This document shows positions 10,558-32,261 of a stretch of 64,000 nucleotides of DNA, piece by piece. This DNA comes from Ceratodon purpureus (lineage: Eukaryota; Streptophyta; Bryopsida; Pseudoditrichales; Ditrichaceae), in the NCBI GenBank assembly GCA_014871385.1, contig CM026426.1, forward strand, positions 67,417,692-67,481,691. Direction: 5' to 3'. The notes beneath the pieces are model-generated. The model saw nothing but the letters and a program-made list of their open reading frames with translations, ran no database searches and had not been told where the DNA came from. The first letter of the stretch is position 1. Every line of letters begins with the position of its first letter. Made by a program: the position numbers and the translations under genes.

Positions 10558-10561
10558 CCTT
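10558..10561. other. Left target-site duplication CCTT
   Basis: CCTT directly precedes the left terminal inverted repeat and is repeated directly after the right one at 23781-23784. The two copies flank the 13.2-kb insertion in the LINE. Confidence 0.8.
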
Positions 10562-10582
10562 GGGTGTAAGTACACTAGACCC
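10562..10582 (+). repeat. Left terminal inverted repeat, 21 bp
   Basis: Exact reverse complement of 23760-23780. It contains the palindrome GTAC within AAGTACAC. Similarity beyond 21 bp is weak. Confidence 0.88.
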
Positions 10583-11506
10583 ATATACTTTTCTAGTCAC
10601 AGTCGTATTTTTCCAGGGTGCGGTCTGTTCACATCAAAAAATACCATCCGAGCTAAATGTTTCTACGTTTTGTAACAGGTTTGCATAATAAGTATGCTTG
10701 TTTAGATCGTATTTGCAGTGTCAAAATAGTTTAGATATGTGATCGCCTATGTTTTAATTGTACTTGTTTACAGTGCAAAAAAAAGTCACAAGTACTAGTT
10801 TAGCAGAAAAGTACAAATTTCTTGTTTATCCAAAACTTCGAATCTGATCTCTTTCATGCAGAGGAAAGGAAAGCATGCCGTTTTTTAGATTCTATCAGCG
10901 AATTGACGGTTTTGTGGCTTATTTGTGGAAGATTTTAAAAAGTAGTACTGAATGCTTAGCAAGGGAAAAAGGGGGGAAATATTCTACGTTTTCAAGATCC
11001 AGCGGTGGATTCTGGACGCCTTAGGATAGTCCTAGGTTGGCTCACTGTTCAATTTGGAAAAAGAGAATTTTTCCGTTATTCATTTAGTAGCCGATCACAC
11101 TGCGTTCACAGTGTATATACAGTACTTATAGTACTCAATGTACATTCGATGTCGCATCCTGACCGTCCACGTGGGCTACCCTATCACTTGAGCCGTTCGT
11201 TTTCGCGATCAAGATCCGAAATTCAAGGGCGCCGAGCTTGGGAGGGTGCCCATGCATGACCCATAGAGCAGATCCCTTCAACGCCCCTCGAATATGCCGC
11301 CGCCACCTGCAATCAACCCCAGCTTTGACATTCTCTTCGTCTCCCCCATGCAGTTTTTCCCACCTTTCGTGGCGGCTGCGCTCTGTGCTCATGTTCAGCT
11401 GTGTTTTCAACGTCTAAACAATTAGGGCGCTCAATGACGGGCTGGTTGCGTAGTGTTTTTTCCATAGTTGCTTGCAGATTCTCTGTGTTTGCTTTGTTCA
11501 TGCAAA
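10583..11506. other. Left noncoding arm of the 13.2-kb transposon
   Basis: No supported coding sequence. The arm would hold the promoter of the transposase gene and subterminal transposase sites. GTAC-containing words (AGTACAA, AAGTACT, GTACTT) recur. Confidence 0.5.
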
Positions 11507-11868
11507 ATGTCTAGGTCCGCTCAGAGGTCGAATCTGGTGCAGAAGTTGATTACTTCGTACTTCACCTGTATCCCACAAACTTCAGAGGTCGAATCGATTT
11601 ATCATACAGAAAATAGCGAAACTAGTGAATCCTGTTACGTATCTGAGACCCCTGTTTCAAAGCAAGGGGTGCGAGATTTCTACTTAGGAAAGTGCAACGC
11701 TGTATCAGTATCACAAGAATCTCCTAGGCATGCATTGTTTCTTGCCGCAGTATCTACTGATTCTTGTAGTTACCCCTCTAGTAGCTATAACGTTTTGCCT
11801 TCTCTGTCTGATGTGAGGTATCAAATATCTTCTCCTACTAGAAGCGAGGAGTCAGTTGCATTCAGAAG
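11507..11868 (+). CDS. Possible 5' exon of the transposase gene
   Basis: An ATG at 11507 opens a 120-residue Ser/Thr-rich frame starting MSRSAQRSNLVQ with no recognised domain. It ends at a GT donor-like site (AG|GTGATG at 11868/11869). Splicing to an acceptor-like AAAGCAG at about 12011 would join it in frame to the large transposase exon. It could equally be a separate small gene or untranslated leader. Position just upstream and on the same strand as the transposase is the main argument. Confidence 0.35.
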
Positions 11869-12039
11869 GTGATGCTTGTCAGCAATTTCGGTGAGTTTTG
11901 TGGAATAGATTGTGCATTCTTCGTGGAACTCTTCATTATGTACAGGACGGTGTTAATCTCTCAACTCCACAACTATGTACTGAGTTTGTCTATAGATTAC
12001 TAACAAAGCAGTGGGTGTCGTGCACAACTCCTAGGTCTC

Positions 12040-15000
12040 ATGGGAAACACCGCCAAGAGACAGCGTGTGAGACATGGTGTTAGTCGGCCTGGACCATCTG
12101 CTAGAGCCGCTGAAAGTAGGTTGCGGAATGAACAGAGGTCGGCTACAGTTGAAGGGGCGAGAGAGAGGAAAGCTCGACAGAGAGCACGTGAGAGACAGAT
12201 GGTCGAGGAAACACGAGTGTTGGCAACTGAGCTTCCAGATGAGGACGTTGAGGACCATCTGAGTGTGAGGGAGTCCAATCGGATTTCATTACGCATAGCT
12301 CAGTACATAGTTGAGGAGTTGAGAAGTTGTCCCGGTCCTTTGAGTCGGAAAGATGTCATGGAGAGTCTGTTGCGTCGTGACACTGTTTGGCCACTATTAC
12401 CTGATTATTACCCTCGACCGCAAGAAGCAAAGGTCGTGCACGGTTTTCTTTTGAACTTCAGGCATGAGCTTTCCATGGTGAAGGTTGCGAATTCAAACGA
12501 GTTGTTAGCACGTAAGAGTGCCCTTCTAGATGCTGCAGTGAGCATGGGGATTGGTGGTGTGAGGGCGTTATCACGAGTTCTGCACACAAGTACTGAGAGC
12601 ATCACGATAGCAAAGAATCGTAGGGTCTATGCTCTCGGCCCCAAAGAAGCTGTGCCAAGACTTCGTCTCCAACGCAAGAAGAGAGGAGGCTTATCCGACT
12701 ACATCAAGGACCAGATCGAAGCATGGTGGAGGAGTCAGACTAAGGTGTCACCTAATAAGAAGGATATTGTGAAGCACAGGGTTGGAAGGAATCTTTGGGC
12801 CGAGCCTCACCCTACTCACTACTTGTGTGAGGCACAAGTACGTTCTTCCCTACCACTTGTATCTGTTGCCTTTGTAAAATCAGTGATAGCTGCCTTATTG
12901 TACACGGAGTTATAATTGTTGCTCGAAGGGTTTTTGGGTACTGTATTCTTAATACTTCGAAAGCCTGTGTTTTGTACTTCTCTTGTACCCTTCTTGTGGC
13001 TATATGTACTATACCATACTAGATGTGAATTAGTGGTGGCCATTTATGTACAAAGACAAATTCGGGTAGACACTTTATACTTTGGATACATTGAGGTACT
13101 GGACGAGTGTGTAGTCTTGTACATGTCTGTGGTAGAAAATGTGGAGTCCACGAACATATAGTACAAACTGTATACTTCTGGAGTTCAAGAGTTTTGTATA
13201 GTTAGTACTCCATGTGGTAGCAGTTGAAAACAACGTACTTGTCTTGTACCAATATATACAAGTTGTACTTTGATGTTGTAGCAAATGTGAAGTCCAATAG
13301 TATATGTGTACTCAAAGTTTACTTCTATATCATTTGTACTCAATGAAACGTCATTTGTACACAACCATAGTACTGTTTTAGTACTGTTCGAGTTCTTTGT
13401 CAGTACTTCATACTCTGGTTTAGGGTACTTCTCATGTTTATTAGTGGTACTAATGTACTATGATACTGATTTGTACTCTCTGATGGAATACAGACAACGT
13501 TCTTCTTGCGGTTTACAGAAGCGTATCCAGAGTGTAGTGTTCGCCAGAGAGCTTTCGAGAGGTTGAAGCCTTGGTGGGTGCGAAAGCTAAAAGAGAGGAA
13601 TACTTGTTGTTGTATCTACCATGTGGAAATGGATCTGATGAAGGTTGGTCTGAGCAATTTGAGGGACAAAGTGCGGGGCCTTCATGCACAGTCTAACTGT
13701 GATTGTGGGTGCTTGGTGTGTGCTACTGATACGGAGGGGGGTTGTCATGCTCATTGTCAGATTTATAAGCGCATAACCTTGATGTGGGAAGCTTGTGTTT
13801 GTCCCAAAGGGGAGCTTGATGTTTGGCACAAGCTGGATTGCCTCATGGGGGATTGTCCTGATTGTGGCTTTGAGTTATTTCCTTTGTGTCCAAAAGAGTT
13901 GGCTAGTATTGACTCATTCACGTTGAAGTGGAAGAGCTTTGAGTATTACGAGGTGGGCGTGGACAAGAAGACAGGGAGACCGAAGAAACGACTGAGAGAG
14001 GCTTTTAAAGAGACACCCGTTGACGAATTCTTGTCCTACATGGAAAAGACAGTGACAACGTTTATCACTCACAATTTCAGGGCGAGATGGCAAGATGAGC
14101 AGTGCCAGAAGATGATGAAGAATGTCCCTGAGGGAGTTATCATCTCCCATATTGATTTTACAGAAAATTATAGTTTCGCAATTCAAAACGAGGTGCAAAG
14201 TATGTATTACTTCAGCACCTCTGTCACTATCCTAGTTCACATTACCATGTGGAGAGAAGGAGAGAACATCATCAAGCAAACACACTTCTATGTGTCTGAC
14301 GACAAGGACCATGATTCGGCATATGTCCAGCATTGTTTGCTCTTGCATTGGAACTGGTTGCAAGATTCTGGCTTCAGTCTAGAAGAACACTGGGTGTATA
14401 GTGACGGGTGCAGCGCCCAATTCAAGTGCGCCACGGCCATGTACTTTGTGGCAAGATACCCCATTCTTACCAAGGGTTGCAAGATGCGATGGAGCTACTT
14501 CAAAAGTGCTCACGGGAAAGGCGAATGGGATGGAGCCGGTGCGGTTGTGAAGAGAGCCTTGACTTCCGAGCAGATCCTAAATCCATCGAGGCCATTGCAG
14601 AATGCTGAACAAGTTGTTCAGTTCCTGGAGGAAAGATACACTGAGCGGGTTACAAGCACGTACAAGCGGACAAATACCCCATCCCTTTCTCGTGTGTTTT
14701 GGCACATTGGGGAAGATGAGGTCGACCATGGTGACACGAGCATACGCTGCAAGACTCTACCGGGCTCGAAGTCACTTTATTCGATTATGGGCTTCTCTGA
14801 TACCGACCCTACTTTGCTGAGGACTCGATCTTTGTCATGTTTTTGTATACCTTGTGTTGATTGCGATTGGGCTAACTGTGAGAACTTATCTCATGTGCAG
14901 GGCTGGGACGTGAAAAGGTTAGTTCCGGACAGCGCTGGTCCAGTAGCAGAGGTGATACAGGAGTTGGACGATGAGGCGAACTGGATGCATGACGGTGTCT

Positions 15001-15122
15001 CCATGTCTCTAGGGGACTTGGTAGATGTAGGGGATAACTTCATGATACCTGCAGAGGAGGATAATGAGGATGGAGTCGATTTTTATATTCTTCAGTGTAC
15101 AAAGCGGAAGTTTGAGTTGTAG
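12040..15122 (+). CDS. DDD-type transposase (two exons)
   Basis: Cut-and-paste transposase of the 13.2-kb element. Exon 12040-12837 ends at CAA|GTACGT and exon 13494 onward follows a TACAG acceptor; both are phase 0, and the 656-bp intron is GTAC-rich. The N-terminal exon is Arg-rich (nuclear localisation/DNA binding) and ends KVSPNKKDIVKHRVGRN then HPTHYLCEAQ. The second exon has a Cys/His cluster (NTCCCIYH, CDCGCLVCATDTEGGCHAHC), likely zinc-binding. Catalytic candidates are the Asp of HIDFTENYS (14154), YSDGCSAQFK (14403) and HGKGEWDGAG (14529), spaced as a DDD RNase-H fold. A TAG stops the frame at 15120-15122, but conserved-looking sequence continues in frame to 15380. The metazoan DFxENY/HGKG transposase family is recalled, not searched; a Sola assignment is tentative. 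Confidence 0.7.
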
Positions 15123-15380
15123 GAGCATCTAAACTGTCCATGGGGGGGCGTGTTTAGTGCGGGCGACGAAGTAATCAGAGCAAAGTATTTCAAGAAGTTT
15201 GGCCGTGGCGACAAGACCTTTGTGTTCTGCGACAAGGCCGTAGACGCTCACGTTGATTCGCATTTGGTGCGGGCTTGCAAATTTCCAATGATTCTTGCTG
15301 CACACAGGGTGAAGGGCTCCCCTGTATACAAGATGTCCAAAGAGAGCTTGAGGGTCTGTGAGGATGCTTTACGGGAGTAG
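15123..15380 (+). pseudogene. Transposase C-terminal segment after a TAG
   Basis: Directly after the TAG at 15120-15122 the same frame stays open for 85 codons to a TAG at 15378-15380. It encodes FSAGDEVIRAKYFKKFGRG, then DAHVDSHLVRACKFPM and a YKMSKESLRVCEDAL end. This has the character of a compact C-terminal domain and fits the preceding DFYILQCTKRKFEL sequence as one domain. I therefore read the TAG as a nonsense mutation (CAG to TAG would do it) or as readthrough, rather than a natural end. No splice pair that removes the TAG in frame was obvious. Confidence 0.5.
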
Positions 15381-15665
15381 TGGGCATTCAATGAGGAATA
15401 GTCATGTGGTACTTCAAAACTTAGATGTACTAATTGTACTAATCTTGTATTGTACAAGGTATTTGTGAATACTCTTTGTACGGTTTGAAACGGGCAGTGA
15501 GCGTGTTGTTGAAGTTATGTGACCGTTGTTCTTTTTATAGAATTTGGCAAGATTTTCGGTCCCCGTCTTTGTACAAATGGACGACTCTTACGTGATAGCT
15601 TCTTTGTGTGTGACCATGTGCTTCTGCGAGATTCATAGTGTTGTTTGCTCCTCTCTTCCTGTGCT

Positions 15666-16052
15666 ATGGACCCTGAGTTAGCCATAGATGAATTTGTTGT
15701 TGCCTTGGGGTGCTTTCTAATGCTGTACCTAGGAATACTAGTTGTTACAATTGTGGCATGTAGGAGGATAGTGCGTGGCGTTTGGGCTGCAAGCTCACAT
15801 GTGCGAAAGTGGACCATTCAACATGGGAGTAAAGAAATGTTCTATTCCCTTCTCTGGAGGCTGAGGGCTGTTCTACCTAGGCAATACAAGGCTGCATGGA
15901 CAGGAGGGTTGGACAGAGCCTCTTTATCAGAGTGTTCTCAGAGTACGAGTCCCCGATGGACGAGAGAGGAAGTAAACGCTGTGTGGGATGAATTTTATAA
16001 TAGAATGAGTGAAGAGGGACTAGAGAATTTGCAGAATTATCTAGAGTCGTAA
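15666..16052 (+). CDS. Small single-pass membrane protein, unknown
   Basis: A 128-residue protein from the ATG at 15666. Residues about 10-33 are a strong hydrophobic segment (FVVALGCFLMLYLGILVVTIVA), immediately followed by a basic CRRIVRG, typical of an N-out or N-in single transmembrane anchor with positive-inside flank. The C-terminal half is polar, with a RWTREEVNAVWDEFYNRM stretch that could be a small helical domain. I recognise no family. It sits inside the 13.2-kb transposon between the transposase and the convergent methyltransferase gene, so it is likely cargo of the element, but it may also be a chance open frame. Confidence 0.4.
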   Translation: MDPELAIDEFVVALGCFLMLYLGILVVTIVACRRIVRGVWAASSHVRKWTIQHGSKEMFYSLLWRLRAVLPRQYKAAWTGGLDRASLSECSQSTSPRWTREEVNAVWDEFYNRMSEEGLENLQNYLES

Positions 16053-16059
16053 CATTATC

Positions 16060-16400
16060 TTCCATAGTTGCACTGTACTCTGTATGTCTTCGGTTCTTTA
16101 TGAATTTGGACCGCTGTGGTTCCAATTGTTCCTACATGTTCCAGATTGTGCAAGTACAGTTAGGACTGCGTGGTAGTCCCAAATTGTGCCCTTGACTTTA
16201 ATTTTAAGTTATCCATTCTTATCTGTATACAAGTACTTAATGCATGAACAAATGATATTCTTTCGGTACTGCTATAGTATCACTTGTAGTATTTTAACTT
16301 AAGGTACAAATGATATACTTTTAGTACTAATTAAGTATCATTTGTATATAAGATTCCTTCATTAGAGTAGTAGGATTCATCTAAATTTCATTACAGAGCT
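16060..16400. other. GTAC-rich spacer between convergent genes
   Basis: Noncoding, AT-rich, with repeated (A)GTACT and (T)TGTACT words. It separates the convergent plus-strand transposon genes from the minus-strand methyltransferase gene and should hold terminators for both; no discrete terminator can be defined. Confidence 0.45.
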
Positions 16401-16414
16401 GGTTCCAAACACGA

Positions 16415-17493
16415 CTAAGCAAGGTCAACTACAAGGGAAAATTTGTCCCTACACATGCTGCTTTGACATTTGCATACAAAGGATGGCAACCCTGGGTCTT
16501 CAAGGTCAAAATCTATGCCATAGTCCCATGTGAGCTCCTCTTGTTCTAGAATGGGACGTTTCGTGAAGAAGGCTACGTGATAAAAACTCTTGTCCCGTTC
16601 ATCAATCAATACTGGCATGTCTATCAGATTCGCATCTTCACACCTACACAGAATAGTATACAAATATTAGTTGACGTTTTACATAAATGAAATAATACTT
16701 AGTGAATGCACACAAATATTACAAACCTGTGATTTAGAAATCTTGCAACATTTCCAAACAAGGTGGAATCCAAGCAGAGGGCGCTGTTGTCATCAAGTTT
16801 TTTTTCGGTAGCCCAATCGGCATCCAGTTGTAGTCCATAAGAGGGTCCTTTCCACACTGCAAAGTTTCTAATTTCCATCTCTGCGTTTGTCAGAATCTCC
16901 CCACTCAACTCAAACAGAAACGCACCTCCTGGGATAGCCTTCGTCGCCCTAATCCCCCATCCCTTCTCGCCCGTGTGGAAAACCTCTACTCGGTACCTCA
17001 TTCCCTGCTGTACAACGCAATTACCACATTTACGGTCGCAGCCACACTTCACACTACACTCTCTAATAAAAGTGCGCGGAACTTGACGTTTTCTACCCCT
17101 CCCTCTAGCATCTACATGTGACACATCAAGACAATAACAGCCTGCTCCCTTCTTACAACTGCTGCAGTCACTGATTCCATATTGGAGGTAGCAATCTCTG
17201 AGGAGGCCATCTTCGTCATATGCGAATTCCCCTCCCGATTCTTTTGCACAGTCGCAAGGCACTGGAGAGGTCAAGCAATCCCTCGTCCCACATTTGCAGC
17301 TGTCTCCAGTGCGAATGGGATACAGACTGTGGTCTACACGGGCTTTTTCGTGAACCATGCTTGAGGACATGTAGTGCAATGGAGTTAAAGTAACATTAGA
17401 ACAAGCTACAGGAACAGGAATGGGCTCCATGCCCCGGGACAAATCTTTGAAGTCAAACCAAGACTCAGCCTGGTATGGTCCCCAACCCAACAA
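16415..17493 (-). CDS. SUVR-like histone H3K9 methyltransferase (SET domain)
   Basis: Encodes a lysine methyltransferase that would methylate histone H3 Lys9 in chromatin. Exon 17493-16727 and exon 16643-16415 are separated by an 83-bp GT-AG intron. Domains in order: Cys-rich pre-SET (CKCGTRDC, CDCAKESGGEFAY, CSSCKKGAGCYC, CSVKCGCDRKCGNC; residues about 66-159), SET (GWGIRATKAIPGGAF, GEILTNAE, GNVARFLNH, then CEDANL, ELTWDYGIDF), and post-SET CKCQSSMC. The cofactor-binding GWG and NHRCEDAN motifs and the catalytic-pocket DYG are intact. The wording of the NVARF.NHRCEDAN and ELTWDYGIDF blocks is that of plant SUVR1/2/4 proteins. No YDG/SRA domain is visible upstream. The true start is unresolved: the frame reaches 17493 without ATG, the first Met is at 17430, and a TGA lies upstream, so another 5' exon is possible. 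The gene lies wholly inside the 13.2-kb transposon. Confidence 0.85.
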
Positions 17494-17525
17494 GCCACAC
17501 CCCCACTGTCAAAGACCGCGATGAC

Positions 17526-17670
17526 AGTGCAAAACGATACTTTACTCACACAAAGTGATGCAAGTGCAAAACAATACTTTACTCACACAGCCTCAGCACA
17601 ATCTGAATACAATCAGAATCACACAAGAGCAGCACAATCACAGCACAATCACAGCACAAACACAGCATAA
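17526..17670 (-). repeat. Short direct repeats upstream of the SET gene
   Basis: A 27-bp unit (AGTGCAAAAC ... TTTACTCACACA) occurs at 17526-17552 and 17563-17589 with one mismatch, 37 bp apart. It is followed by several CACAGCACAAT-like copies at about 17610-17670. They lie just 5' of the methyltransferase gene on its strand, where promoter elements would be expected. Function is unknown. Confidence 0.5.
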
Positions 17671-17938
17671 TCACTTGCCAAAACATAATGTACTCACACA
17701 ACGAGACTTACAAAATAATTGAACCATACAAAACGCCCAGAGTCACAGTGTCGACGAACAACACAATACAAATAGTAAAGGAGGGCAAAACCCCCACGTT
17801 TCTGTTCCCTAAACCCCAAAGGTGGAGAAGATACACATCAGAACTTAGAAGGACTACATACACCTTCTATGCACATCACTAAAAGAAAAATAACTCAAGA
17901 AATCTCCAGCAGTTTAGAAGTGGTGAGAAGGGCTAGTC

Positions 17939-20900
17939 TTATTTGCGCCTCCGCTTCTTCTTTTTCTCTACCTGTCCCTGGAGACTAACAGCTTCAGCTT
18001 GGAGTTGCGCCCTTGTTTTTACCCTTGATTTGCCCGGTTCTTTAGCATTGACCTGGTCCCCCCTACTCGAATTCTCCACCTCATTCTCTGCCTCTGCCTC
18101 ATCTTCTAAATCCTTACTCAGCCGTTTCTTCCTATCCTTCGTAACGTGCTGACTCTCCTTCTCGGCTCCATCTTCACCCGTATTACCATCCTCCAGCGGC
18201 TTCTCCTTGAATTTTAACTTCCCATTTTTCCGCTGTGGCTCCTTCTCAGCTTGATCAGCATCTCCTCCCTCCAGTTCCTCCTCCTGATCTTCCTCCTCGT
18301 CTTCCATGACAACCTTCTCTGGTAGTGGCGACTTAGGGGTCTTCTTCCGTGTCTTCTTTCCACTTGTCTTTTCTACCTTGCTCCTGCCTGGCAAACAGTC
18401 GGAGCCTGTCGCTTCAACCGCCACTTCCAGCCCCAACATGTTAGAACTCCGGAAGATGCTTGGTTCCGGAGTTGGTGTGCTGTCCAACCGGTCCTCTTCC
18501 ACCACCTCTTTCTCCTCGACTCCAAGCTGGTTTGCTTCGACCGGTGAGGTAACGGCCATCTTTGTCTGAGCCTTGGTCTTTGGGACCTCCTGAGGACTAA
18601 CAAACTTAGGATCGTATGACTTAAATACAGGCAACATCACGCCCTCGCTTATTTCTTCTACCTCGTCCTGTTCATCACCTTGCCCTCCTGCTTGCTCACC
18701 CGAATCCACAGACTTCTCACCATCCGAGTCGCCATCGTCACCGTCCGAGTCCTCTGTGGTACCTGAGCTCGAGGGCAGTGTCCCAATAACTTTGTGTTTG
18801 TCTTCCCCATCCGTCTCCTCTTCTGAATCAAGGTCAGCCTCTGCAATTATTCCACGACCCCCTTGCCCCTCCAAACACTCAAACGAAATGACGTCAGACT
18901 TTTGACGCTTCCCAGTGCTTTTCTTCTCTGCACCAGTTCTTTTCCGAGACTCGATCGGCGTCGACATCTGTGGTTCTTCGCCTTCAATAGCCAAGGCTCT
19001 CGTCTTCCCACTGACCTCACTTACCTTGGCTGAGGTACAAATAGCTTGACTCGCATCTCCCTCGGTAAAGTTGGCAGGAGAGATCTCTGATGTTGCCAGT
19101 GCAAACAATTGGGATGCTATCTCTGAAACATGCCAACAGAAAACCGTAAGGCACACAGCGAAGATTTAACTCACAATTGGGTATAATTAGCACCTCTAGT
19201 ACAATCTTTTGTACAAAGAATACCTAAAAATATACATATACTACTAATCAGCTAAAAAAGTACTTGTACCTGAACTGCGCAAAATATGGGTACTGCAAGT
19301 ATCTCTTCTAGTACATTCTAATTGTATAAGGAATACATCCGAGAGTACGTAAAATACACTCGGAACACTTGTACAATATGCAATGTACTTCTGATTTCTA
19401 CAATGCACGTACATTAGATAAACGATACAGCAGATGTTTGTACAAACTTTACAAATGAAACTCTGACCTCGTACACATTCTACAAATGTTACAAGGTAAT
19501 GTACAACCATGATAAAATCAACTACTTCAAAGATTAGGACAGATCAGGGAATGTACACTACGTGCGTATGATAAGTACAGTGTAAGAGACGCATGACTTA
19601 CCTCAAGTGTACAAGGCGTACCAATAGACAAATGTTATGTAATCCGATAACAAGATGCACATGCGGTACATGAATCATAGTACCTATGATCAGTATCCTC
19701 AATCACAAGGAATACAAGTCTTACATCTTCCAATCGTTACAGGTGTACTCTAACCCCGAATAACAATTCAAAGTGTACGCACATGTACATGTCAGAAATT
19801 ATAAATGTAGCATAAGGGAACTCTGGCACTAAGCGTACTTAAGTTTTCTGCATACATTATATAGAATTCCAGTCTTCGGTGGTTGAGCTCTACAGAGTCT
19901 ATTTAGGAAGGAAATGAAGACTCAGCAAAGGAATAGGAATACTCACCTACTGTAGGCGAAGTTTCCTTTGCGGCATCCATTCTCACTTTGAACACCTTCT
20001 TCCTCTCCTCAGCACAACCCAGCATTCGGGCCCTCTGCAACATTTCCGCACTTGGTTCCCCCCAACCGAAGCTTCGATGCCACTCAGGGTGACAGAGTTG
20101 TTGGCATCCTCGTGCCAAACACTTGTTTCCATTCATAAACAAGACCGATGCACAAAATGGATGGTACAAGTGCCTACACGAGGAAACAACAATATCACTC
20201 AATGGAAATGGAAAGAGACACAATGAGCAAACCGTAATACTCAAGAAGGTATTGTCTTCGGATTCGTTTGAGCCATTGTCTTCTAGGTATACCACTGGAC
20301 GAGGCCAGAAGGTACCTATATTCTTTCCCCTCCTCAGTTGAAGCAACTCTTGCTTTAGATTCTCCAATGCTAATCCACGACCTTCTGCCCCAGCGACTAT
20401 GTTCAAGAAATCGGTCTCTGCAGATTGGAAATCAGTCGCAAATTTACATAGCCTCTCCTCCTCATCCGCAAGCTGCTCCTGAATGCCCTCCATCTTTATC
20501 ACCTCTCTGTCCACAGCCACTCCATCGCCTTTTAGCACTTCAATTCTCTTAGCCTTATCTTCCAATTGCCGCTGGTAGCTCTGTATCAAGCACTCTGACT
20601 GCTGCATATCCACCCTACATCTGTCTCTCTTCTCAGCCGCGGTCTTCTCCTCCATTTTCGTTGCCGACATCTCCACCGCCATCAAGGTCATCACCTCCTC
20701 AATCTCCTCACGACGCTCCAGAACTGAAGCTTGGGTCCACCGTCCACCTCGTTGCGCCTCAGTTCCCTCCCCCTCAATTGAGACCCCCGAATCCCCTGAT
20801 TCCCCCAACCTCGACTTCGTCCTCCTCTCCCACATCTGATCACCTCCAATCCCTGCCCCACCTCCCGTCGACGTCGGTGTGGAGCTCGCTCCTGGCTCTA

Positions 20901-21588
20901 GTTTTATAGCCCGCCATTCCCTCCCCCGAACCTCCAGCGGTTTCTCCTCCTCAAAGGTTCTGCGCAGCGCCATCAACTTCCCCAAATCCTGCTTGTATCT
21001 GTTCCGCTGTCTCTTGTTGGTCTCTGCTCCAAACGCACACCAATCCACAAATCCAGCTCCCTTCTCGTACTCCATCGCCACTCCTTCGGCAAATCTTATC
21101 TTCAGGTACTAAGGTATGGGGAGGCGTGGGTGTTGATAGAGTATTGGATGCAGATACTCGATTCGCTTCACAACATTTGCTTCTTTGCAAGCAGCCCACG
21201 CGTACCCTTGGCGGCCGTTGTCTCCGTAAGCAGCTCCGAACAGCTCCTTCATCAAACTCTGGCTCACCGTATCCTTACGAAAACGGTGAGGGTTATCTCC
21301 TACACTCGGCAGCTTCGGGTACGCTGCCATGAAATCTTCCCGACTGAGCTCTTTCGGTGGAGCTCGTAACCTCGAGATCTCGGCATCAACATCCTGCACC
21401 CTCGAGAACGCCGGCTTCGACATCGCATCGCCCTTCTTCATTGGCCGGCGCGGTCTCGCTTTTTCCTTCCCTCCCGGCGTCTTCGTCTTCTCCCCATCAC
21501 TGTCGGAGCCCGCCGCCTCGAACTCCCTGCTGGTCTCCACACCATCGTCCTCCATGGTGGAAGGTGGAGCTGATTGTCTCCTTCCCAC
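17939..21588 (-). CDS. RING-like, coiled-coil, highly charged protein
   Basis: Minus-strand cargo gene of the 13.2-kb transposon. Exon 1 runs from the ATG at about 21552-21588 to 19947 (GTAG|GTGAGT donor) and exon 2 from 19124 (TTTCAG acceptor) to the stop at 17939; the junction keeps frame. The N-terminus is charged. Residues in the middle (about 20730-20340) form a long coiled coil (REEIEEVMTLMAVEM, QRQLEDKAKRIEVLK). A zinc-binding RING-H2-like motif follows: C-x2-C, C-x-H-x2-H-x2-C, C-x4-C, around CSLCLFPF and CRHLYHPFC (about 20230-20100). Exon 2 alternates acidic and basic runs and ends in a KKKKRRRK nuclear-localisation-like tail. A TAG at 21111-21109 interrupts the frame between two same-frame parts. 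Ubiquitin ligase activity or chromatin binding is possible but not shown. Confidence 0.6.
19160..19940 (-). other. GTAC-rich intron of the RING-like gene
   Basis: Intron of about 820 bp with an exceptional density of GTAC and GTACAA/TTGTAC words, far more than one per 256 bp expected by chance. No open frame is supported. Confidence 0.6.
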
Positions 21589-21599
21589 CTTGCGCCCGC

Positions 21600-23759
21600 T
21601 CTATGTGCTCCCAGACCGCGTGCTGCCAATGCGCCCCGCCATGGCAATCGCCCCTGCACCAAACCCTAAGCTCTCCAACCACCCTTACCCTCCACTTCTC
21701 ACCCTTCACTCCAAACAAAACCCCTAAACCCTACGCACGCGAGAGAGGCTGCGCCATCGCTGGAGAGAGACGACCTCGGAAGAATTGGAAAAACCAAAGT
21801 CCACTCCTTCCCGCGCGTGAAGGAGGGAAGACGATGACTACCGGCGGTCACCGGTCGTTGCTCTTCCTAAACCTGCCGTCACCGGTCATAACCAACAAAC
21901 TAAGACCGGCGCAACCGGCAGACCGTCGGCCACCGGTCACCACCTTCCCGCCACCTGCAACCACCGGTTACTCAAACTGAATAAGTGACGCCTTATCCTT
22001 CACTAACCGGCCCAACCTTTCCGTAACTATAATTGTTGCTTCTTAATAAAATCTAGGAAAATTAAAAATAAATCTATGTAATGTACCTAATTGAAAATTA
22101 AATTATGTAATTTATTTATCTCACATTCATTAGAGGAAGGAAGTGCCATCTTATCTTTGTTTGAGATTACTAGTGTATTTATATACATTGAACATATGTT
22201 TATTTCACATTGCCATCGGTAATAAATGGTGTGCCTTTAATCCTTTATCTACAAAATCACTTATGGAAGTCCATCATATTTAATGGACGTCTAAAAATTT
22301 CATACTTTACTTTATTTACCATCTTTAAGTTACATATTTTAACTAGTGAAGAAAAATCACCAACAAAATAATGTGTATCAAATAATTATAGTAGATAAAT
22401 ATTGTTGCGATTTAATTCTCTTGATTAGCCCATTTCATACATATTTGGCCATGTATATGGATAGACTTGCAAGCTCTGGTTTAAATTAATTGAAGTGAAT
22501 TCCATGGAATGTAATATTAAGTGGATTAATAAAGAAATATAAATCTTTCCAGTGGTTTGATTTATTTTATATGTATAAATTGAACATGCTTCTAAGAAAA
22601 ATAGAAGTACAGTTTTTTTTTTAATAACGTTGTATAAAAATATTATTACATCCTTAGTTGCCAAGTTTAAACCATTAGAACAATTTGAATATTATATACA
22701 ACTATAGGCAGACCCTAACACCTCTATTTTAATTATTCACTGAAGTATATGAAATTTATATGGGTTTATAAATAACCTTAAAATTAACCAAATATCAAAA
22801 CAATATGTAATTACTATGGACCCAATTTAATTTAAATACGGTTTAGTTTCTATGCTTTCATAGATAATGAATATATTTGTATACCTTAATCAATTTTTCT
22901 TGTACATGCTTCATAAATTTTATTGTGATAACAATAAATACTTGGTGATATTTCTCATTATACCGTACCCCTAATTTGAATTTTATATCCTACATATTTT
23001 TAGTACTCTATATGCTTGGTCATTTCCAACTAAAATCTTAGAATTAATGTAAACAAAATTCTAATACTAAATATGGCAGTGGATATGAATACTATACAGT
23101 GTATTGTTATATAGATATACGTCTACATATGTTTCAAATAATTATGTTCCAAAATTTGGTGGAATTCACGAATAATAATTGATAATCATCCAATCCTCAA
23201 CCATTTTAGGTTACGATAGAGCTTTATATTATAATATAACAATGATGTGTGTCTAAAAAGACGCACCAAAAAATATAACATACTCCTTTTTATCATTATA
23301 CATGTATAATGGTAATTTGGAAAGTTAAAACATGGTTCTGATGTAATTTCATCCAGCCATCATCCACAAAAACGCACTTTGATTTAACAAAACCAAACCT
23401 TTGAGCCTAATTAAAACAAACTACCAAATATTTTTTCTTCTCCGAATGCCTTATTAGGATGAAAAGTTGAGTACCAGACTTTTCTTCCACCCTGAACCTA
23501 GGATTCCACCTCGGATCCGTTTGCCAAGTCACATGCCCCACCTACTAATATACCAGCAATAGCAAACCGCATGTACGTCCAACCTGATGAGCACGTGGCA
23601 TGTCAGGGAACCCTCCATCGTCATTGGTGGATCTAGATCCATGGAACTAACCCCCACGATCTACATCTAACGGTTCAGATGCTCCGATGCTAGAACTATA
23701 GGTACAATATTGTACTCCTCTGTACATCAAGTACAACAGCATTTTGCCCAAAGTGTACG
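21600..23759. other. Right noncoding arm of the 13.2-kb transposon
   Basis: To about 21990 the sequence is GC-rich with several CACCGGT/ACCGGTC words, probably the promoter side of the minus-strand RING-like gene. From 22020 to 23700 it is strongly AT-rich with no credible coding frame. Close to the right terminal repeat GTAC words return (AATATTGTACTCCTCTGTAC, then AAGTACAAC and GTGTACGG), consistent with subterminal transposase sites. Confidence 0.5.
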
Positions 23760-23780
23760 GGGTCTAGTGTACTTACACCC
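23760..23780 (-). repeat. Right terminal inverted repeat, 21 bp
   Basis: Exact reverse complement of 10562-10582. It is followed by the second CCTT at 23781-23784. Confidence 0.88.
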
Positions 23781-23784
23781 CCTT
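23781..23784. other. Right target-site duplication CCTT
   Basis: Direct copy of 10558-10561. Deleting the element plus one CCTT leaves the C-rich LINE in a single frame across the junction. Confidence 0.8.
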
Positions 23785-23825
23785 CTCTTTTTGCCCACTC
23801 CCACTCTAACACACCTCAATCCTCC

Positions 23826-25915
23826 TTGCTAATACCCTCCACTGCACCTCCGTGGACTCGGCCTACCGGCCTCGTCCAGGAAAATGTATCCACCATATTC
23901 TCCCTCCATATTCAATCCTGGAATTGGCATCATGGCCCAGACACACCTCCCTCCCGTACCACAACTCACAATCCCCCTCCCTCCAGCTTCTCATCATTTT
24001 TATATCAGACACTATCTCCCCTCCCTCCTCCCTTGCTATTTCCTTCCTTCTACTCCTTCCACCTTACCTTCTACATATACTCCCACACACACCGCCGTCG
24101 CCCAAAACCCCACACACTCCACTACCACCTCATTTACGCCCCCCATCTTCTCCTTCTCAGTGGAGACATCGAAACCAACCCAGGCCCTATGCCTAACATC
24201 CTACATGCCCATCCCCCCATACACCGGAAACGAGCCAGAACGTACTTTATCCCTAGCACCATCAAACTCCACCTTGAATACCAACATCTAGCACAAACTT
24301 TTTCCCCCCTCATCACCCCCACACACCCCCTCCACTTACAGATCACCACTACACACCCCCATCTTTACCACTACATTCAAAACCAACCCCACTCCCCATC
24401 CTCTCACATCATTTATGCCCTAATTGTTACTATTCACCGTTCCATAACCATCTGTAACAATACTTTTGCCCAACCTTAAACCTACCATTTCAACGATATA
24501 TGGACTAATACAATCCTTATCCGCCTCTCTTGCCTTTCAAACCCTCCAGAACGTCACATCCCAACTCAACATCCATATACCTCCTTCCTCAAAAACCACC
24601 ATCACTTGATTATCCCCCCTAATACCATTCACTCTGACCTATACCACTTCATCCACCACCATCCCCCTCTCCTAACTCTCCAACACTTGTCTACCAAATT
24701 TCCATACCTTCCTGCTAGCTTACTAGCAGAATCTCTCAGGATCCATGAATCCCTCCCTGAATATACCCACCCCCCGCCTCCACCCCCCATCCCCAACCCC
24801 ACGCCCCACCCTTCCCCCACGCTTAACCATTCCACCCATTTTATCACTTGGAATGCTTCCTCCCTCAACACTGCCCTCCCCACCCTCCCAGAACTCATCA
24901 CCAAAACCCCCAATGCCCCTGCTATCATTACTATCCAAGAAACCAAACTCATTGCTACAAAGTCTACCAAATACATCCAAGCACTTTTTCCCCAATACAA
25001 ACTCATCTTTAACAACACCCACTCTCTTACTCGTTGCGTGCAACAACGTATGCCTTACACCCCAACCCGTGGTGGCCTCCTCACCTTAATACACCAAACC
25101 TACGCCTATCCAGGCAACATTATCAAAATCTCCACTCCTAAAGAATTCTCTCCTTACCTCCAAATCATACAAATTCTCAACCAACCCCTCCAATCTTTCC
25201 TACTCATACATCTATATATGCCCTCTCATTCTGATGACCTACCACTTATTACACAAATACAACAACACATCACTCAACAACTCCAACTGCACCCCACACA
25301 TCTCCATATCCTTTGTGCTAACTTTAACAGATACATAACTCTCATTGGTAGATATGATGACCACAACATTACCCCCCCCCCCCCAACCGGAGGACACTGC
25401 TTGAAGAACATTCAGAGACTCCCTTCACCTAGAATACATCCCAACCGACCACCCTTTTACCAGACAAGGCGGCCCCAACTATTCTTAAACTAGCCTTATC
25501 GATGGCTACTATCTTCGCACCCCGAACAATTCCTTATACACCTCTACCACTGATATTTACCACCACCTCAATTCAGATCACTCTCCAGTCACTCTACATA
25601 TCCCACCCAACACCCTCCTCGCCAAACCTGTTCCCCAACGCGCACACACACCTCGTATCCTTAACCCCATTCCCCCGGCCAACTTAGAAAAATTTCAAAC
25701 TGAATACTTCGAAGAAAATGCTCTCCCCATAAATGATCTCACAACCCTCCTATCCATAGAACACCTCACCCAAGACCAATGGCAAACCGCCTGCTCCAAA
25801 CTTGATCTCTCAGTCCACAACATCTCCACCAAAATCGAAGCCACCTGTAGCGCCCCACCAATTCCCACTCTTAAACCCAGCACCTCCCTCCAAGGTGGCT
25901 TCCTCCCTAGAAAAC
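23826..25915 (+). pseudogene. LINE ORF2 N-terminal part with APE-type endonuclease
   Basis: Would nick target DNA to prime reverse transcription. The frame holds the 2A-like motif, a His/Pro-rich linker, then the endonuclease blocks FITWNASSLN (about 24840), IIIQETK-like TIQETK (about 24935), LLIHLYMPS (about 25205) and ANFNRYITLIGR (about 25318-25350). After a frame change at the C-run near 25373-25383 the STTDIYHHLNSDHSP block (about 25545-25595) carries the catalytic SDH. Expected GDFN is altered to CANFN, losing the aspartate. A TAA at 24477-24479 and a TAA ending the frame at 25493 add to the damage. Inactive copy. Confidence 0.7.
24162..24188 (+). other. 2A-like ribosome-skipping motif in the LINE
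   Basis: The frame reads LLLLSGDIETNPGP, with the D-x-E-x-N-P-G-P core complete (24165-24188) and the hydrophobic lead-in usual for such motifs. It lies about 650 nt upstream of the endonuclease, in the same frame, with one TAA (24477-24479) between. 2A-like sequences skip the Gly-Pro peptide bond during translation and are known in several APE-type non-LTR clades. Here it would release an N-terminal peptide from the ORF2 polyprotein. Confidence 0.75.
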
Positions 25916-25940
25916 TCCAAAAAACTTGGAAACAACAAAA

Positions 25941-27711
25941 TTCTAAACTAAAGTATAGTTCAGTACCACTGTCGAAGATAAAAAGGGGTCTACCTGATGT
26001 CGTTGGCTTTGTTGAACAGGGATGCTTGAATAGAATATTTCTCAACCTGTTCAGGTGAGTGACCTATTCTTCAAATTGCAATTTGCTGTAGAGGAGGTTA
26101 CGGCGTACCCCATACAGCATTAGATGGAAGAGGGTTCTGCATGTCTCTCGATCCTAAACACCGATATAGAAGTCGAGAGTGATTTCTTTTGAGTATGTCG
26201 ATTGATACATTAGATAACGAAATAGATTATGACAATGGAGGGGACGATGATGTTGAGGCAGAGGTAGAGGTTAATGAGTATGAGCAAATACGTGCGGCAA
26301 GAATCGCGAGTAACAATGCTTACCTGCAGGCTACCGCTACCCTGAACTCGGCTAATGAACTGTAAGTCTATTGCAATTATAACCCTACTTCTACCGTGAT
26401 CCTACCATACGATTGAAAGCACGCGTCAAATCTGACGGTCCGGATCTTCCCAACAAGGGTTTGGTCAGGACAATTGCGGAGAGTAGAATAGTCTTATTTG
26501 CATGTTGACGTCGTCTTTGTTTGCGAAATACTGCTTACTTGTTGTTTTGTTGTAACTAGGAATGCTGATATAAGAGATGTTAGAAGAAGGTCTAGGGCGC
26601 ATCATACACCTAAACATGGCGAACCACCACGTTGTTCCAAGAGACTGTATGATTCCATATCCGAAGATTGTGAACCTCGTATAGTCCGCCACAATTCAGA
26701 GGACACTCCTTCGGATGGTGAGAAAGACATCTCTAGCTCACTCGACTACAATGGTAAAATTTCTAGTTGTTGGTTTCCCTTCGAGTTTTCTATCTACATC
26801 GAAAGCGTGCCTTAAGTTGTTTTTCTGTATAATACAGTATTAGTCTTAGAAGTAATTTAAGAGTCACATTGAGCTGCAGATATGAATCTTTCATGGGTTT
26901 TGTTAGTCTTTTTACTCTTCAAATTTCATGTTTCGTCTTTTGGAAAGCAGCCCATGCATTTCCTGTCAATGTTATGTGGCTTGCCGTTAAGTATTCTTCT
27001 ATTGCGATGGGCTATTGTAGAATATACACAATATTTATGTCGTCTTGATTTTGTCTATGAGATAATGCAGAGGGGAGTGGAAGCGAGAATTCCACAGAGT
27101 CTTCAGCGGAGTGTCGTCACAAGACATCACGGCGACAAATCTAAATAGCAAAGGCAAAGGCACCCTAGGATCGAGTAAGACTTCACGGGGGAAGATGAAG
27201 GGTCAGAAGTCGAGCAGGCGTGGGGACAGAAAGGGCGAGAATGCAAACAACATCATCACTAGTGAAGCATGTCGCTCGCTTCCCAAGGCGACTACGAACC
27301 AAAAAGATGCACCACATGGTTTTACATGGGTGCTTGTACCCAACAACCAAGCAACATCAGGTATGTTCAATGTCCTCAGTGGATTCCCCCATGATGTGTT
27401 TCCTCCTAACTGGGGATACGTTCAGTCGAAGTCGACTCCAGGCATGGGTGGGATAGAGGGACAGGGAAATGACAAGGATCGAAATAGCCTCGCATCTGGA
27501 TCTTCATCAATAAAAGAAGAGTCCCTCAAGAAAAGAATCAGGCGAGCCAAGACGAGAGAGATAGAGGAGGTGGCAACAAACAGGGTGGTTGTAGGGAAGA
27601 AGCCATATGCCGTCTAAGTGCGTCCATCCGGAGAAGTAGACAGTGGATGCACAGGCCATCTGAAATGACAAGAGTACATTAGGGACCTTCTACCCCGAAT
27701 TCTTGATATGA
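25941..27711 (+). pseudogene. Ptta/En-Spm-like gene piece, copy 1
   Basis: Internal exons of the gene described at 39586-45060. Recognisable parts are SKLKYSSVPLSKIKRG, an exon near 26195-26360 (DNEIDYDNGGDDDVEAE ... AARIASNNAYLQATA) ending at a GTAAGT donor, an exon starting about 26561 (RDVRRRSRAHHT ... PPRCSKRLYDS), and a Lys/Arg-rich exon about 27065-27620. It begins at 25941 in the middle of the LINE and ends at 27711 where a short duplicated filler and LINE sequence start. Stops TAA (27615-27617) and TGA (27666-27668 region) interrupt the frame, as in all three copies. Confidence 0.55.
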
Positions 27712-27761
27712 CAGCCAAGAAGGTCTCCGAGTACATGACAGCCAAGAAGGTCTCCGAGTAG
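27708..27761 (+). repeat. 27-bp tandem duplication at the Ptta/LINE junction
   Basis: Two adjacent 27-bp copies, each starting ATGACAGCCAAG and ending TCTCCGAGTA, differing only at the last base. They fill the junction between the Ptta-like piece and the LINE. The same structure is present at 34731-34784, so it predates the 7-kb duplication. Confidence 0.85.
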
Positions 27762-27775
27762 AAGGTAGCACCGCT

Positions 27776-28966
27776 CGGCAACTCCAACTCCTCATTGCTG
27801 CACTTGAAGATGCCAAATTCACAAACCAAGACATTTACCTACTCTAGATTGACTTCAAAAACGCTTTCGGCTCACTCGACCACGCCCGTCTCCTAGCCAT
27901 CATGAAAGACCTTGGCTACCCAACCGATGCCGTTATGTTAATAGGCAATATCTACTCCCACTCCAACACTATATTTACCGGCAATTTTTTTGATAAAACC
28001 AAACCCATACCTATCCAACGCGGCACCATCCAGGGTGACACACTCAGCCCCTATCTTTTTATCATCTTCCAAGAACCACTCCTCCGCTGGCTCCAACAAA
28101 GCAAACATGGTTACACTTTTGGAACTCCCCCCACAACTGTCAGCTCCGCAGCTTATGCCAATGATCTCGCCGCTCTTGCTACAACCCTCCACTCTTTACA
28201 ACTACAACTAAACAAAATAGACAAATTTTGCCAATGGGCAGGAATGGACTTAGGTGTCCCCAAATGTACGGTCACAGGTTGTTCCAACAAAACCAAACTA
28301 CAACCCACTGCTTTTTCCCATCACCTCCGTCACCACAACATCTCTTATCGCGGGCAACCACTCCCAGTCCTCCACCAAAACGAACCATATGTCTACCTCG
28401 GTATTTAGCTTGTCCCCTCTCTTAAATGGAAACTCCAAACCCATATCACCACCACTAAAATCACAAACCAATGTAAACAACTCGCCAAATGCCCCGCTAC
28501 CATGCGGCAACGGATTAGTATGGTTGACACCGTCATACGCGCTCGCATTGCCTACAGCTTCGACGCAGTCCCTTACTCCCTCCCCACTATCAAAAAACTT
28601 GATAAAAAACTCATTGCCATCCAAAAAACCATCTGCGGGCTTCCCAAAAGTACTGCCAATGTCCTCAGCCAACTCCCTCACGAACTCTTCGGACTTGCAG
28701 CCTTTTCTCTAAAAAATGCCTACCTTCGATGTATCAGTGAACAACTTCGCAGTGCCATTAACGACAAGGGCCGCTTAGGGACAATATACAATGGTTTGGT
28801 ACACCACATCCTGGCCAAAGCCGGTGGAGCCAAACACCTCCCCGACTCACGCCCCATGCTTGCCAACACTCCTCCACCACACGCACACTTTTTCTCACAA
28901 AAATGGTCGCTGGCATCCACCTTAATAGCACACATACCGACTTCCCCCTTCACCAAACCCCCTTAG
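27776..28966 (+). pseudogene. LINE reverse transcriptase, inactive (copy 1)
   Basis: Would copy element RNA into DNA at the nicked target. Blocks in order: QLQLLIAALEDAKF, IDFKNAFGSLDHARL (finger/palm motif with the first catalytic Asp, about 27848), PIQRGTIQGDTLSPYLF (about 28012-28060), AAYANDLAAL (about 28150-28180), GMDLGVPKC (28243) and YVYLGI (28390). The catalytic Y-A-D-D box reads YAND: the first of the paired aspartates is Asn (AAT, 28160-28162). TAG codons interrupt the frame at 27845-27847 and 28406-28408, and a TAG ends it at 28964-28966; the following sequence continues in another frame. The copy is dead. Confidence 0.8.
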
Positions 28967-30737
28967 AACTTGAATGGACAACTATAGCTACCTCTGAACT
29001 TCCTCATCTCAATCCTGAACTCTCTCTCAAACTCCTTTCCAAACTTCAAGCCCACAGTATCTACTCCATCCAACAGCTCACTCTGCCCAATGGCACCCAC
29101 CTTATGTCCCCGGATGACTTCAAAATTTATTACCACCACACTACCAAACTTGAAAAAAGTGCCCTCCATCTCGCCAAACAACTCTTTTGCCAAACCACTT
29201 GCTCTATAGACTTCCCCAATCCCTGCCTTACACATCCCTCCTTCTACATATTACGCCACAAATACATCCTCCAACCTCACCATCCCACACCATGCCAATC
29301 TGCCCCATTGGCCCCCCCTCCCGCCAATCCCTCAACCCCCCACTCCCGAACCTCCATCTCACATGCTCCAACACCCTCTCCAATTCCCCATCCATAGCAT
29401 TCTCGACCACCAGACTACCACCTCCAAAGATAAATACAAAATCTCCAAAACTTCCACCACCTACCTCTGCCAATGGCTCGGCCCCAATCACATCATCTAC
29501 AACAAATGGCTTCCCCAACGCCAACTATTTCCCCTCAACGAACCCCCCGTCATCCAAACCCACCTCACCTTACTTACTCAATACTACACCACTTATCGTC
29601 ACCGCTACTACCACCACATCACCAATACCCTTTTTTCTCCTACCCAACCTCAAGACACCAGATACATCCCCCGCCCACCCCCATCCCTCTCCTTCATCTC
29701 TCCACCCTCCAATGTAACCTTGACAAAGATATCTCCACAACGCATAGCACTATTCACACACTCGACTCAAACGCACATATCTACAACAACATCGGCCAAT
29801 ATATCACCACCATCTCCATCTCCCGGCTAACTTGGCTATGGTACCAATATCACACACACAAACACCAAACTCACAACCTCCTCCCTCCACTACAGTCCTT
29901 CAAAACCGAAATTGCCTGGTTATGTCAATGCTACACCCATAAAACCAGCAACAAAAACCCTCAACTCACACCCCATCACTCCCTTCTAGCCCCACTTCTT
30001 GATACCCTCACCACCACCTTCATTGTTACAAACCCTTACTTCTCCTCACCCCTCACATGTCCTTTACCCCTCACCCAATTTAACTCTCAATTTAACAGAG
30101 ACAAGATCTTTGGCTCCTTAGACAGTGCCTTCTCCTATAAATGGCAAGGCATTGGCTATGCCCACCCTCCCAATGCTGCCATTGCCCAACAAGCCCTACA
30201 CTGGGCTTGTCTTGCAGCCAAAAACGACCCTGCCACCATCACTTTCCTTGCCATTCCCGACCCCACTTGGTACCTGAACTCCTCTCCATACACTGGACCC
30301 TTCCCAGACACACATGTTCTCCTCCACTTTCCTGCTCATACGGCCCCCTATACCCCAGCCACCTCCCCCCCTTGAACCACGCCCCTCCTCCTCCAATGAA
30401 CCCCTCGCACTACATATTTGGTGTATTCATTACCAAAACCACCCTCTTGGCACCCCCTCTCAACTCGACGCCCTTACCACCTCCCTCACCACCCTCAACC
30501 TCCTCCAACACCATTCCCAACTCATCTCTCCTACACCCCCTCACACCCGCGTTCACAACAACAAAACATGGCACAAACTCCTCTATCCACCTTCTACTTC
30601 CACACACCCTCCTCTCCTCCTCTCCTCCCCCCCTCTCCTCTTTTCATATCACTCCCACCCTCAAATTCCTACCAGATCATAGCTACTATACTGATGGATC
30701 TTTCCTACCCCCTGAGCAAGCCCCAGATGGTCACTAG
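28967..30737 (+). pseudogene. LINE ORF2 linker between RT and RNase H (copy 1)
   Basis: Reading continues in shifting frames. 28903-29320 covers LEWTTIATSELPHLNPELSLK, and about 30080-30375 covers DKIFGSLDSAFSYKWQG. The RNase H entry motif SYYTDGSF, with the first catalytic Asp, is near 30690-30710. The frame is broken by several indels, including a C-run near 29318 that is one base longer than in copy 2. Confidence 0.55.
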
Positions 30738-30816
30738 AAAAAAGAAAAAGCAGGTTATGGCATCTACAGCCCCTCTAAACCTAACATTCAAATCTCCCGA
30801 CGCTTGCCCGGGCTAC

Positions 30817-32057: not shown

Positions 32058-32215
32058 GCAATCAATACTATTGCAATCCAATACGCCGGCTCCATTCTTC
32101 TCCATAAACGCCGCCTTGAAAACAAACAACCGCTACCCCACGAATAAAACAATCCTCCACACACACTTATCTTCATGAACTAATCCGCTCCTTCTATATC
32201 CCTTTATATATACTC

Positions 32216-32221
<6 letters not shown>

Positions 32222-32260: not shown

Positions 32261-32261
<1 letters not shown>

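Follow-up and report, generated by a model that had tools for sequence, protein, structure and literature searches.

The segment at positions 10562-23780 of the window (the whole 64,000-nt stretch of Ceratodon purpureus that was analysed: assembly GCA_014871385.1, contig CM026426.1, 67,417,692-67,481,691, forward strand) is a DNA transposon of 13,219 bp. The explanation that best accounts for the results as a whole, and which we consider very probable, is that it belongs to a transposon family whose SET and RING genes have long been co-inherited and most probably work for the element. The features of the element and its target are:

10558..10561, target-site duplication CCTT, left copy, adjoining the left end
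10562..10582, plus strand, left terminal inverted repeat GGGTGTAAGTACACTAGACCC, perfect 21/21 pairing with the right end
12040..12837, plus strand, transposase exon 1, 266 codons, methionine at 12040, GT donor in 10/10 aligned copies
13494..15122, plus strand, transposase exon 2, AG acceptor in 10/10 copies, premature stop at its end in the window copy
14154-14156, 14403-14405 and 14529-14531, plus strand, candidate catalytic D codons inside transposase exon 2
15123..15401, plus strand, stretch into which the transposase frame runs on in other copies, belonging to a conserved C-terminal region; in the window copy it follows the premature stop
15666..16052, plus strand, small membrane-protein gene, 128 codons, matched in 10/10 copies
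16415..16643, minus strand, SET gene exon 3 with CEDANL, EELTWDYG and post-SET CKCxxxxC, from aligned copies and motifs
16727..17505, minus strand, SET gene exon 2 with Pre-SET cysteines and SET core, from Pfam, PDB and 146 scored genome matches
17972..18967, minus strand, SET gene exon 1, charged, methionine at 18967, in-frame splice join
19903..21555, minus strand, gene of the RING-like protein, with the RING spanning approximately 20101-20238
23760..23780, minus strand, right terminal inverted repeat, 21 bp, exact reverse complement of GGGTGTAAGTACACTAGACCC
23781..23784, target-site duplication CCTT, right copy, adjoining the right end
23785..25937, plus strand, right part of the interrupted LINE (the target; its left part ends at 10561), endonuclease-like ORF by eye

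Both inverted ends are exact and the CCTT duplication lies directly outside them, as the original prediction had claimed; at three or fewer mismatches the end sequence has just two matches in the window, and none was obtained in 100 shuffles. In the host genome, at least 39 matches were listed for the left-end 299 bp and at least 40 for the right end, and a left-end pattern of 23 bases was found at 21 places (reversed control, 0). The proposed search for paired ends at 5-20 kb returned, among the matches listed, at least 15 left-right pairs spaced 13.0-13.7 kb apart, ten of which were read, chosen for an end spacing of 13.2-13.6 kb. The nine copies other than that in the window have 0-2 mismatches per inverted end, except for one left end with a register shift. 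In nine of the ten copies the 4-bp target duplications are exact; in the remaining copy 3 of the 4 bases agree. The flanks (100 bp) show no match to each other between copies. A chance pair of inverted repeats flanking ordinary host genes, to which we give almost no credence, is already refuted by these ten copies with the same ends, 4-bp duplications and differing flanks.

The target site was less informative about the boundary. Deleting 10562-23784 does leave a 339-aa open frame over the junction, but shifted junctions also leave open frames (299-381 aa), and the frame therefore does not prove the boundary, which is established by the other copies; the argument from a restored LINE frame is weak. 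A related LINE copy (L043) aligns across the insertion point without the insert; its left flank scores 184, and the best of 100 shuffles reaches 141. A second copy (L042) is marginal, as 5 of 100 shuffles reach its left-flank score, a third (L041) has no left-flank match, and a fourth (L044), which aligned weakly, was left out of the empty-site evidence. The suggested check for empty sites thus gave modest evidence; a genome search with the joined flanks found no near-identical empty site.

For the claim of a DDD transposase the signs are mixed. The spacing D-x82-D-x41-D is kept in all ten transposase sequences examined, but searches of Pfam, NCBIfam, PHROGs and PDB returned nothing for the protein. 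Because the transposase lacks a library match, we infer cut-and-paste movement from the ends, the duplications and the D-D-D spacing. By established DDD-transposase chemistry, the protein would bind the GGGTG ends, excise the element and integrate it through cuts staggered by 4 bases. C(2)C and H(3-4)H motifs are absent between D304 and D346; further along, C451-x2-C454 was found in 8/8 sequences and HxxxH in 9/10, and given these downstream residues, the catalytic residues may be others than D221, D304 and D346. A BAH-like fold of the conserved C-terminus, suspected by eye, was dropped when Pfam and PDB gave no support. Peptide-pattern scans of viral contigs and prokaryote genomes confirmed no relatives outside this genome, and PHROGs gave no match.

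We found that the transposase, small membrane-protein, SET and RING-like genes are present in all ten full-length copies read, a count that covers copies with an end spacing of 13.2-13.6 kb; neither outcome that the original prediction had named as refuting it, the lack of a second copy with the same ends or copies devoid of the SET and RING-like genes, was observed among the copies read. Over the ten copies, frames free of internal stops and frameshifts were observed for RING in seven, SET in six and the whole transposase in two. The window copy is damaged in its transposase and RING genes. In nine of the ten copies the transposase frame ends at the same place, codon 636 of exon 2, and the window copy ends 93 codons earlier, at a stop absent from the other nine; its RING gene has an internal stop (21109-21111) that is likewise found in no other read copy. 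With both proteins truncated, the window copy would need other copies to move.

The predicted SET methyltransferase was borne out by Pfam (Pre-SET, 5.5e-10; SET, 7.7e-8) and by PDB, where the closest proteins are EHMT1/2 and Clr4, H3K9 methyltransferases. The pre-SET cysteines, GWGxR and RFxNHR were found in 14/14 sequences and FExxGEI in 12/14, and with Pre-SET, SET and post-SET regions and catalytic motifs present, the protein is by sequence a SUV39/EHMT-class, H3K9-class lysine methyltransferase. The charged stretch at 18967-17972 is the first exon of this gene, which corrects the earlier reading. The RING-like protein is supported by eight C/H ligands kept in 4/4 aligned proteins, though its Pfam match is weak and below the cut-off (best E 0.002). 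Compared with the RING-H2 metal-ligand pattern, six of seven spacings fit and the last pair is C-x4-C, and the protein is a probable ubiquitin ligase. A library search found no DNA-binding domain in the SET or RING proteins. The predicted small membrane protein has a single hydrophobic segment, judged by eye; in two 18-kb regions from distant families no match to its gene was seen.

To place the gene set in a wider context, matches to the transposase were compared with those to SET and RING. SET lies within 15 kb of 63 of the 80 scored transposase matches (73-100% identical), against an expected mean of 1.4 and a maximum of 5 in 200 shifts; RING is near 44 of the 80, and 77 of 106 RING matches have SET nearby. 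The remaining 17 transposase matches have no listed SET within 15 kb. At five such loci about 4 kb beside the transposase was read, and SET was present in three; of the two without SET in that stretch, one has a MULE-like gene and the other frames of no recognised kind, and two loci are too few to call a SET-free sister family. A second family, on contig C5, is 11,362 bp long with ends paired at 20/21 positions and AACT duplications, and identities of 73% for its transposase, 49% for SET and 44% for RING. Across 11 loci, SET distances correlate with transposase distances (Pearson 0.94, Spearman 0.60; 0/5000 permutations as high). Between subfamilies, dN/dS by a counting method is 0.05-0.18 for the transposase, 0.12-0.15 for RING, 0.31-0.46 for the SET core and 0.51-0.75 for the small membrane protein; among very close copies the values are noisy, up to 3 for SET. 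These comparisons indicate that the gene set is older than the window element's family, and SET and RING have the appearance of hallmark genes for a large group of transposons.

As related copies carry the same gene set, SET and RING look like working parts and not accidental passengers. That a single capture brought in host genes which the element has since carried as functionless passengers is very improbable in our judgement: SET evolves faster than the transposase and SET or RING frames are broken in some copies, but the same genes stand in the same order in families whose SET proteins are only 49-58% identical, dN/dS is well below 1 between subfamilies, and SET co-diverges with the transposase. 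Since SET and RING have long travelled with the transposase, with frames and motifs kept, they most likely serve the element.

How they would serve it is less certain. SET and RING proteins would act in trans on chromatin or host silencing factors, and such action would tune the strength of silencing of the element family, as described for Vandal elements and proposed for fungal TET/JBP transposons; we regard the general idea of trans control of silencing as evenly balanced. The benefit to a transposon from a silencing-class methyltransferase is not obvious. Self-limitation, in which SET writes silencing marks on the element's own copies to hold copy number at a tolerable level, or directs insertion into heterochromatin, would agree with the H3K9 methyltransferases closest to SET in PDB and with the location of copies below 97% identity mostly on the large contig C6 (22/26), less so for copies at 97% or above (7/13). 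The difference between young and old copies is not significant alone (Fisher p 0.056), however, and low recombination on a sex chromosome would explain it equally well, and we consider self-limitation rather unlikely. Less likely still is a direct part in transposition, such as end binding, synapsis or target choice. SETMAR, a SET domain-transposase fusion, keeps end binding according to PMC9062482, and SET and RING are co-inherited with the transposase, but here the two are encoded apart from it, on the opposite strand, and library searches showed no DNA-binding domain in their proteins.

Fungal TET/JBP transposons likewise inherit a chromatin- or DNA-modifying enzyme with their transposases, thought to oppose silencing, though both enzyme class and transposases differ. 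The anti-silencing protein of Vandal elements, VANC, is sequence-specific and is not known as a SET or RING protein. The Sola superfamily, said to go back to Bao et al. 2009, reportedly has a DDD transposase and 4-bp target duplications; we know of no SET or RING genes in it. The Lanisha superfamily was proposed by authors who also wrote the Ceratodon genome paper, and its source is probably the same moss. In the account of PMC12730594, Vandal elements of Arabidopsis (MuDR) encode their own anti-silencing protein, which makes them alike as plant transposons coding for a chromatin regulator. A table of PMC9033089 lists Sola1 for Physcomitrella. By its description, Sola resembles our element in its 4-bp duplications, in its DDD transposase (a candidate here) and in its presence in a moss. 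Lanisha (Maumus, McDaniel, Carey, Repbase Reports 2020) was newly proposed as an EnSpm-like superfamily in which the second D and last E enclose C(2)C and H(3-4)H, in a clade (CMCT) whose ends are mostly CA..TG, as summarized in PMC12730594. In contrast, the moss element ends in GGGTG..CACCC, and between D304 and D346 it lacks these motifs, similar residues lying further on. Among Phytophthora transposons, HarbingerS and MuDR carry SET methyltransferase genes (Repbase Reports 2014, as cited by PMC12730594); these DNA transposons likewise combine a transposase with a SET lysine methyltransferase gene. The moss element differs from them, as there described, in its 4-bp duplications (0, 2 or 3 bp in Harbinger relatives; PMC12730594), GGGTG ends, library-unmatched transposase and added RING gene; its duplications and the missing Pfam transposase match place it outside HarbingerS. 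The claim that chromatin-modifying cargo is unusual needs tempering: because SET genes in oomycete transposons have been described (PMC12730594), cargo of this kind is not in itself a novelty.

What appears to be new is the library-unmatched transposase group, the SET and RING pair and the moss host. The pairing of a SET methyltransferase with a RING ubiquitin ligase, if borne out, would have a logic comparable to the fission-yeast Clr4 complex. We raise tentatively, as an outside prospect, that the element represents an undescribed plant DNA-transposon superfamily or deep lineage whose hallmark is an H3K9-class SET methyltransferase and a RING ubiquitin ligase as a portable chromatin-writing pair. 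Old copies lie mostly on what would be the sex chromosome, and if this is true the elements could set the chromatin state there. If SET and RING act on silencing, nature would here offer many copies of a transposon that writes or edits the chromatin marks of its host, and the moss is one that laboratories can cultivate. The element is also relevant to the question of what makes big, old sex chromosomes of plants fill up with particular transposons. Copies in this one moss perhaps number hundreds, maybe over a thousand, and the distant families are independent versions of the SET and RING pair, so that function is testable by comparison.

The element in the window belongs to a family with many members in the host assembly (362.5 Mb, 151 contigs), in which its left 299 bp had at least 39 matches and its right 300 bp at least 40. 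The features of the window considered here are as follows.

10562-23780: DNA transposon of 13,219 bp, with genes for a transposase (two exons, + strand), a small membrane protein (+ strand), a SET methyltransferase (three exons, - strand) and a RING-like protein (- strand)
10562-10582 and 23760-23780: paired ends, a perfect 21-bp inverted repeat
23785-25937: right part of the interrupted LINE
25937-41783: 7.0-kb unit directly right of the LINE fragment, head-to-tail about 2.25 times, 99.6-99.7% identity
55293-56678: tandem array, 171-bp unit, 8.1 copies, 98% matches

Among the matches listed, left and right ends on the same strand and less than 60 kb apart formed 30 pairs, 15 of them spaced at 13.0-13.7 kb. 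Ten of these 15, including the window copy, were read; as they were chosen by end spacing, the gene counts apply to full-length copies. The SET, RING and membrane-protein genes were matched in 10/10 copies and transposase matches were present in all ten, so that the paired ends recur elsewhere with the same genes, the check that the original prediction had named. The copies were 13.2-13.6 kb long, with element-wide pairwise identities of 0.80 to 0.99. The GT and AG splice sites of the transposase intron were found in 10/10 copies, and three of the four SET splice sites were kept in 10/10, the first acceptor in 7/10. Target duplications were 4 bp long (CCTT, CCTC, AAGA, AGTA, TGTT, AAAG, AAAC, AACA and CCCG), the tenth being imperfect (CCCA/CCCG). 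The 100-bp flanks gave no match when compared between copies; in one copy the own left and right flanks resembled each other.

For the window copy, both the perfect ends and the flanking CCTT on left and right were recovered as predicted, and the terminal repeat had no further window match at up to 3 mismatches (0 in 100 shuffles). Restoration of a LINE reading frame had also been claimed: excision of 10562-23784 does give a 339-aa open frame spanning the junction, but shifted junctions also leave open frames of 299-381 aa, so the restored frame is weak evidence for the boundaries. A genome search with the joined flanks returned 8 matches, two of them the window's own flanks and the other six partial LINE relatives. 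Evidence for an uninterrupted site is modest: the relative L043 aligned across the insertion point without an insert (left-flank score 184, maximum 141 in 100 shuffles); L042 was marginal, its left-flank score being reached by 5/100 shuffles, and L041 had no left-flank match (59/100 shuffles reached its score). The LINE frame at about 24100-24200 contains GDIETNPGP, which we take to be a 2A-like peptide motif, ahead of an endonuclease-like region.

The window copy carries a stop at codon 543 of transposase exon 2 and another at codon 149 of the RING gene, both absent from the other nine copies; the frames for SET and the membrane protein are open. In transposase exon 2, 9/10 copies share a stop at codon 636. 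Frames without internal stops or frameshifts were found for RING in 7/10 copies, for SET in 6/10 (the aligned start codon missing in 3/10) and for the entire transposase in 2/10; each gene has open versions somewhere in the host genome.

In the predicted DDD transposase, three aspartates, D-x82-D-x41-D (SHID, YSDG, GEWDG), were kept in 10/10 sequences and suggest a plain DDD core. The protein had no counterpart in the libraries: single sequences had no match in Pfam, NCBIfam, PHROGs or PDB, nor did a profile of eight in PDB, and DUF7496 with one member was not significant (E 0.085-0.15). A conserved cysteine pair and HxxxH lie further C-terminal. A putative Sola affiliation would fit; a table in PMC9033089 has Sola1 in the moss Physcomitrella. 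Lanisha, which shares authors with the Ceratodon genome paper, counts as EnSpm-like in PMC12730594, a description that the ends of the element here do not fit. In the SET protein, the pre-SET cysteines, GWGxR and RFxNHR were kept in 14/14 cores (duplicate window row left out) and FExxGEI in 12/14; a text search found LTWDY and the post-SET part at 6/8 distant loci. The closest solved structures were EHMT1/2 and Clr4, before plant SUVH proteins, and by sequence the protein is a predicted H3K9-class methyltransferase.

The association of these genes extends to a wider group. Genome searches used single exons as queries, and the best 80 of 1,471 first-look candidates were scored for the transposase, 146 of 743 for SET and 113 of 1,904 for RING, the last reduced to 106 places by leaving out 7 rows that were second pieces of listed places. 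Among the matches listed, 63/80 transposases had a SET match and 44/80 a RING match within 15 kb; likewise SET lay near 77/106 RING matches and RING near 77/146 SET matches. As only the best matches were listed, a gene without a listed neighbour may still have one. Shifting transposase positions by 0.5-3 Mb left a mean of 1.4 SET neighbours (maximum 5, 200 shifts). For 17 transposases no SET was listed. One of these was a copy read here that carries SET remains, and six more were followed over about 4 kb beside the transposase: three had a SET gene, two had none (one adjoining a MULE-like gene, the other unidentified frames) and the sixth was read on the wrong side. At least 67/80 transposases are accompanied by SET. 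Loci L049 and L030 have, close to transposase exon 2, a MULE-like gene that presumably encodes a SWIM-type zinc-finger motif; its 146-aa pieces are 97% identical. An element on contig C5 (11,362 bp, AACT duplications) has ends GGGTGAAAGTACGTTACACCC paired at 20/21 positions and is 73% identical to the window element in transposase, 49% in SET and 44% in RING; two 18-kb distant-family regions had no membrane-gene match.

Subfamilies were compared by a counting method without a likelihood test, which gave these dN/dS values: transposase exon 2, 0.05-0.18; RING, 0.12-0.15; SET core, 0.31-0.46; membrane gene, 0.51-0.75. Values were noisy between the closest copies (SET up to 3), and in comparisons of distant families the synonymous sites were almost or fully saturated. 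SET and transposase distances were correlated across 11 loci (Pearson 0.94, Spearman 0.60; 0/5000 permutations as high). Some copies were mosaic: by synonymous divergence, the window and C9:5042 copies (L022, L023) are close in the transposase (0.06) and the SET core (0.10) but far apart in the SET first exon (0.50) and RING (about 0.73), the pattern that an exchange of element halves between subfamilies would give.

A DDD transposase is the likely means of movement, and SET and RING would give the element an influence of its own on silencing, the reading with most precedent. That influence may be either counter-silencing or self-limitation. Transposons with a SET gene are already known: Kojima (PMC12730594) names SET genes in HarbingerS and MuDR of Phytophthora, as well as the Vandal regulators and, from eleven lineages of fungal transposons, TET/JBP genes. 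The pairing of SET with RING was not met in searches of the open-licence literature, and neither were the transposase group that lacks library matches, a group this large in a single plant genome or the moss host; a Repbase entry for the group may already exist.

A review puts the C. purpureus genome at 360 Mb, with U and V chromosomes each exceeding 100 Mb, about 30% of it (PMC8000587). Contig C6, which carries the window, measures 110.5 Mb (30.5% of the assembly), and these sizes lead us to infer that it is one of the sex chromosomes. Among the matches listed, C6 held 29/39 left ends, more than its share of the assembly would predict (p = 2e-8). The simplest reading would be that the element inserted broadly and that its copies then survived better on a low-recombination chromosome. 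Over-representation on C6 was strongest for older copies: among the matches listed, 7/13 left ends at 97% identity or more were on C6 (p = 0.08) and 22/26 of those below 97% (young versus old, p = 0.056).
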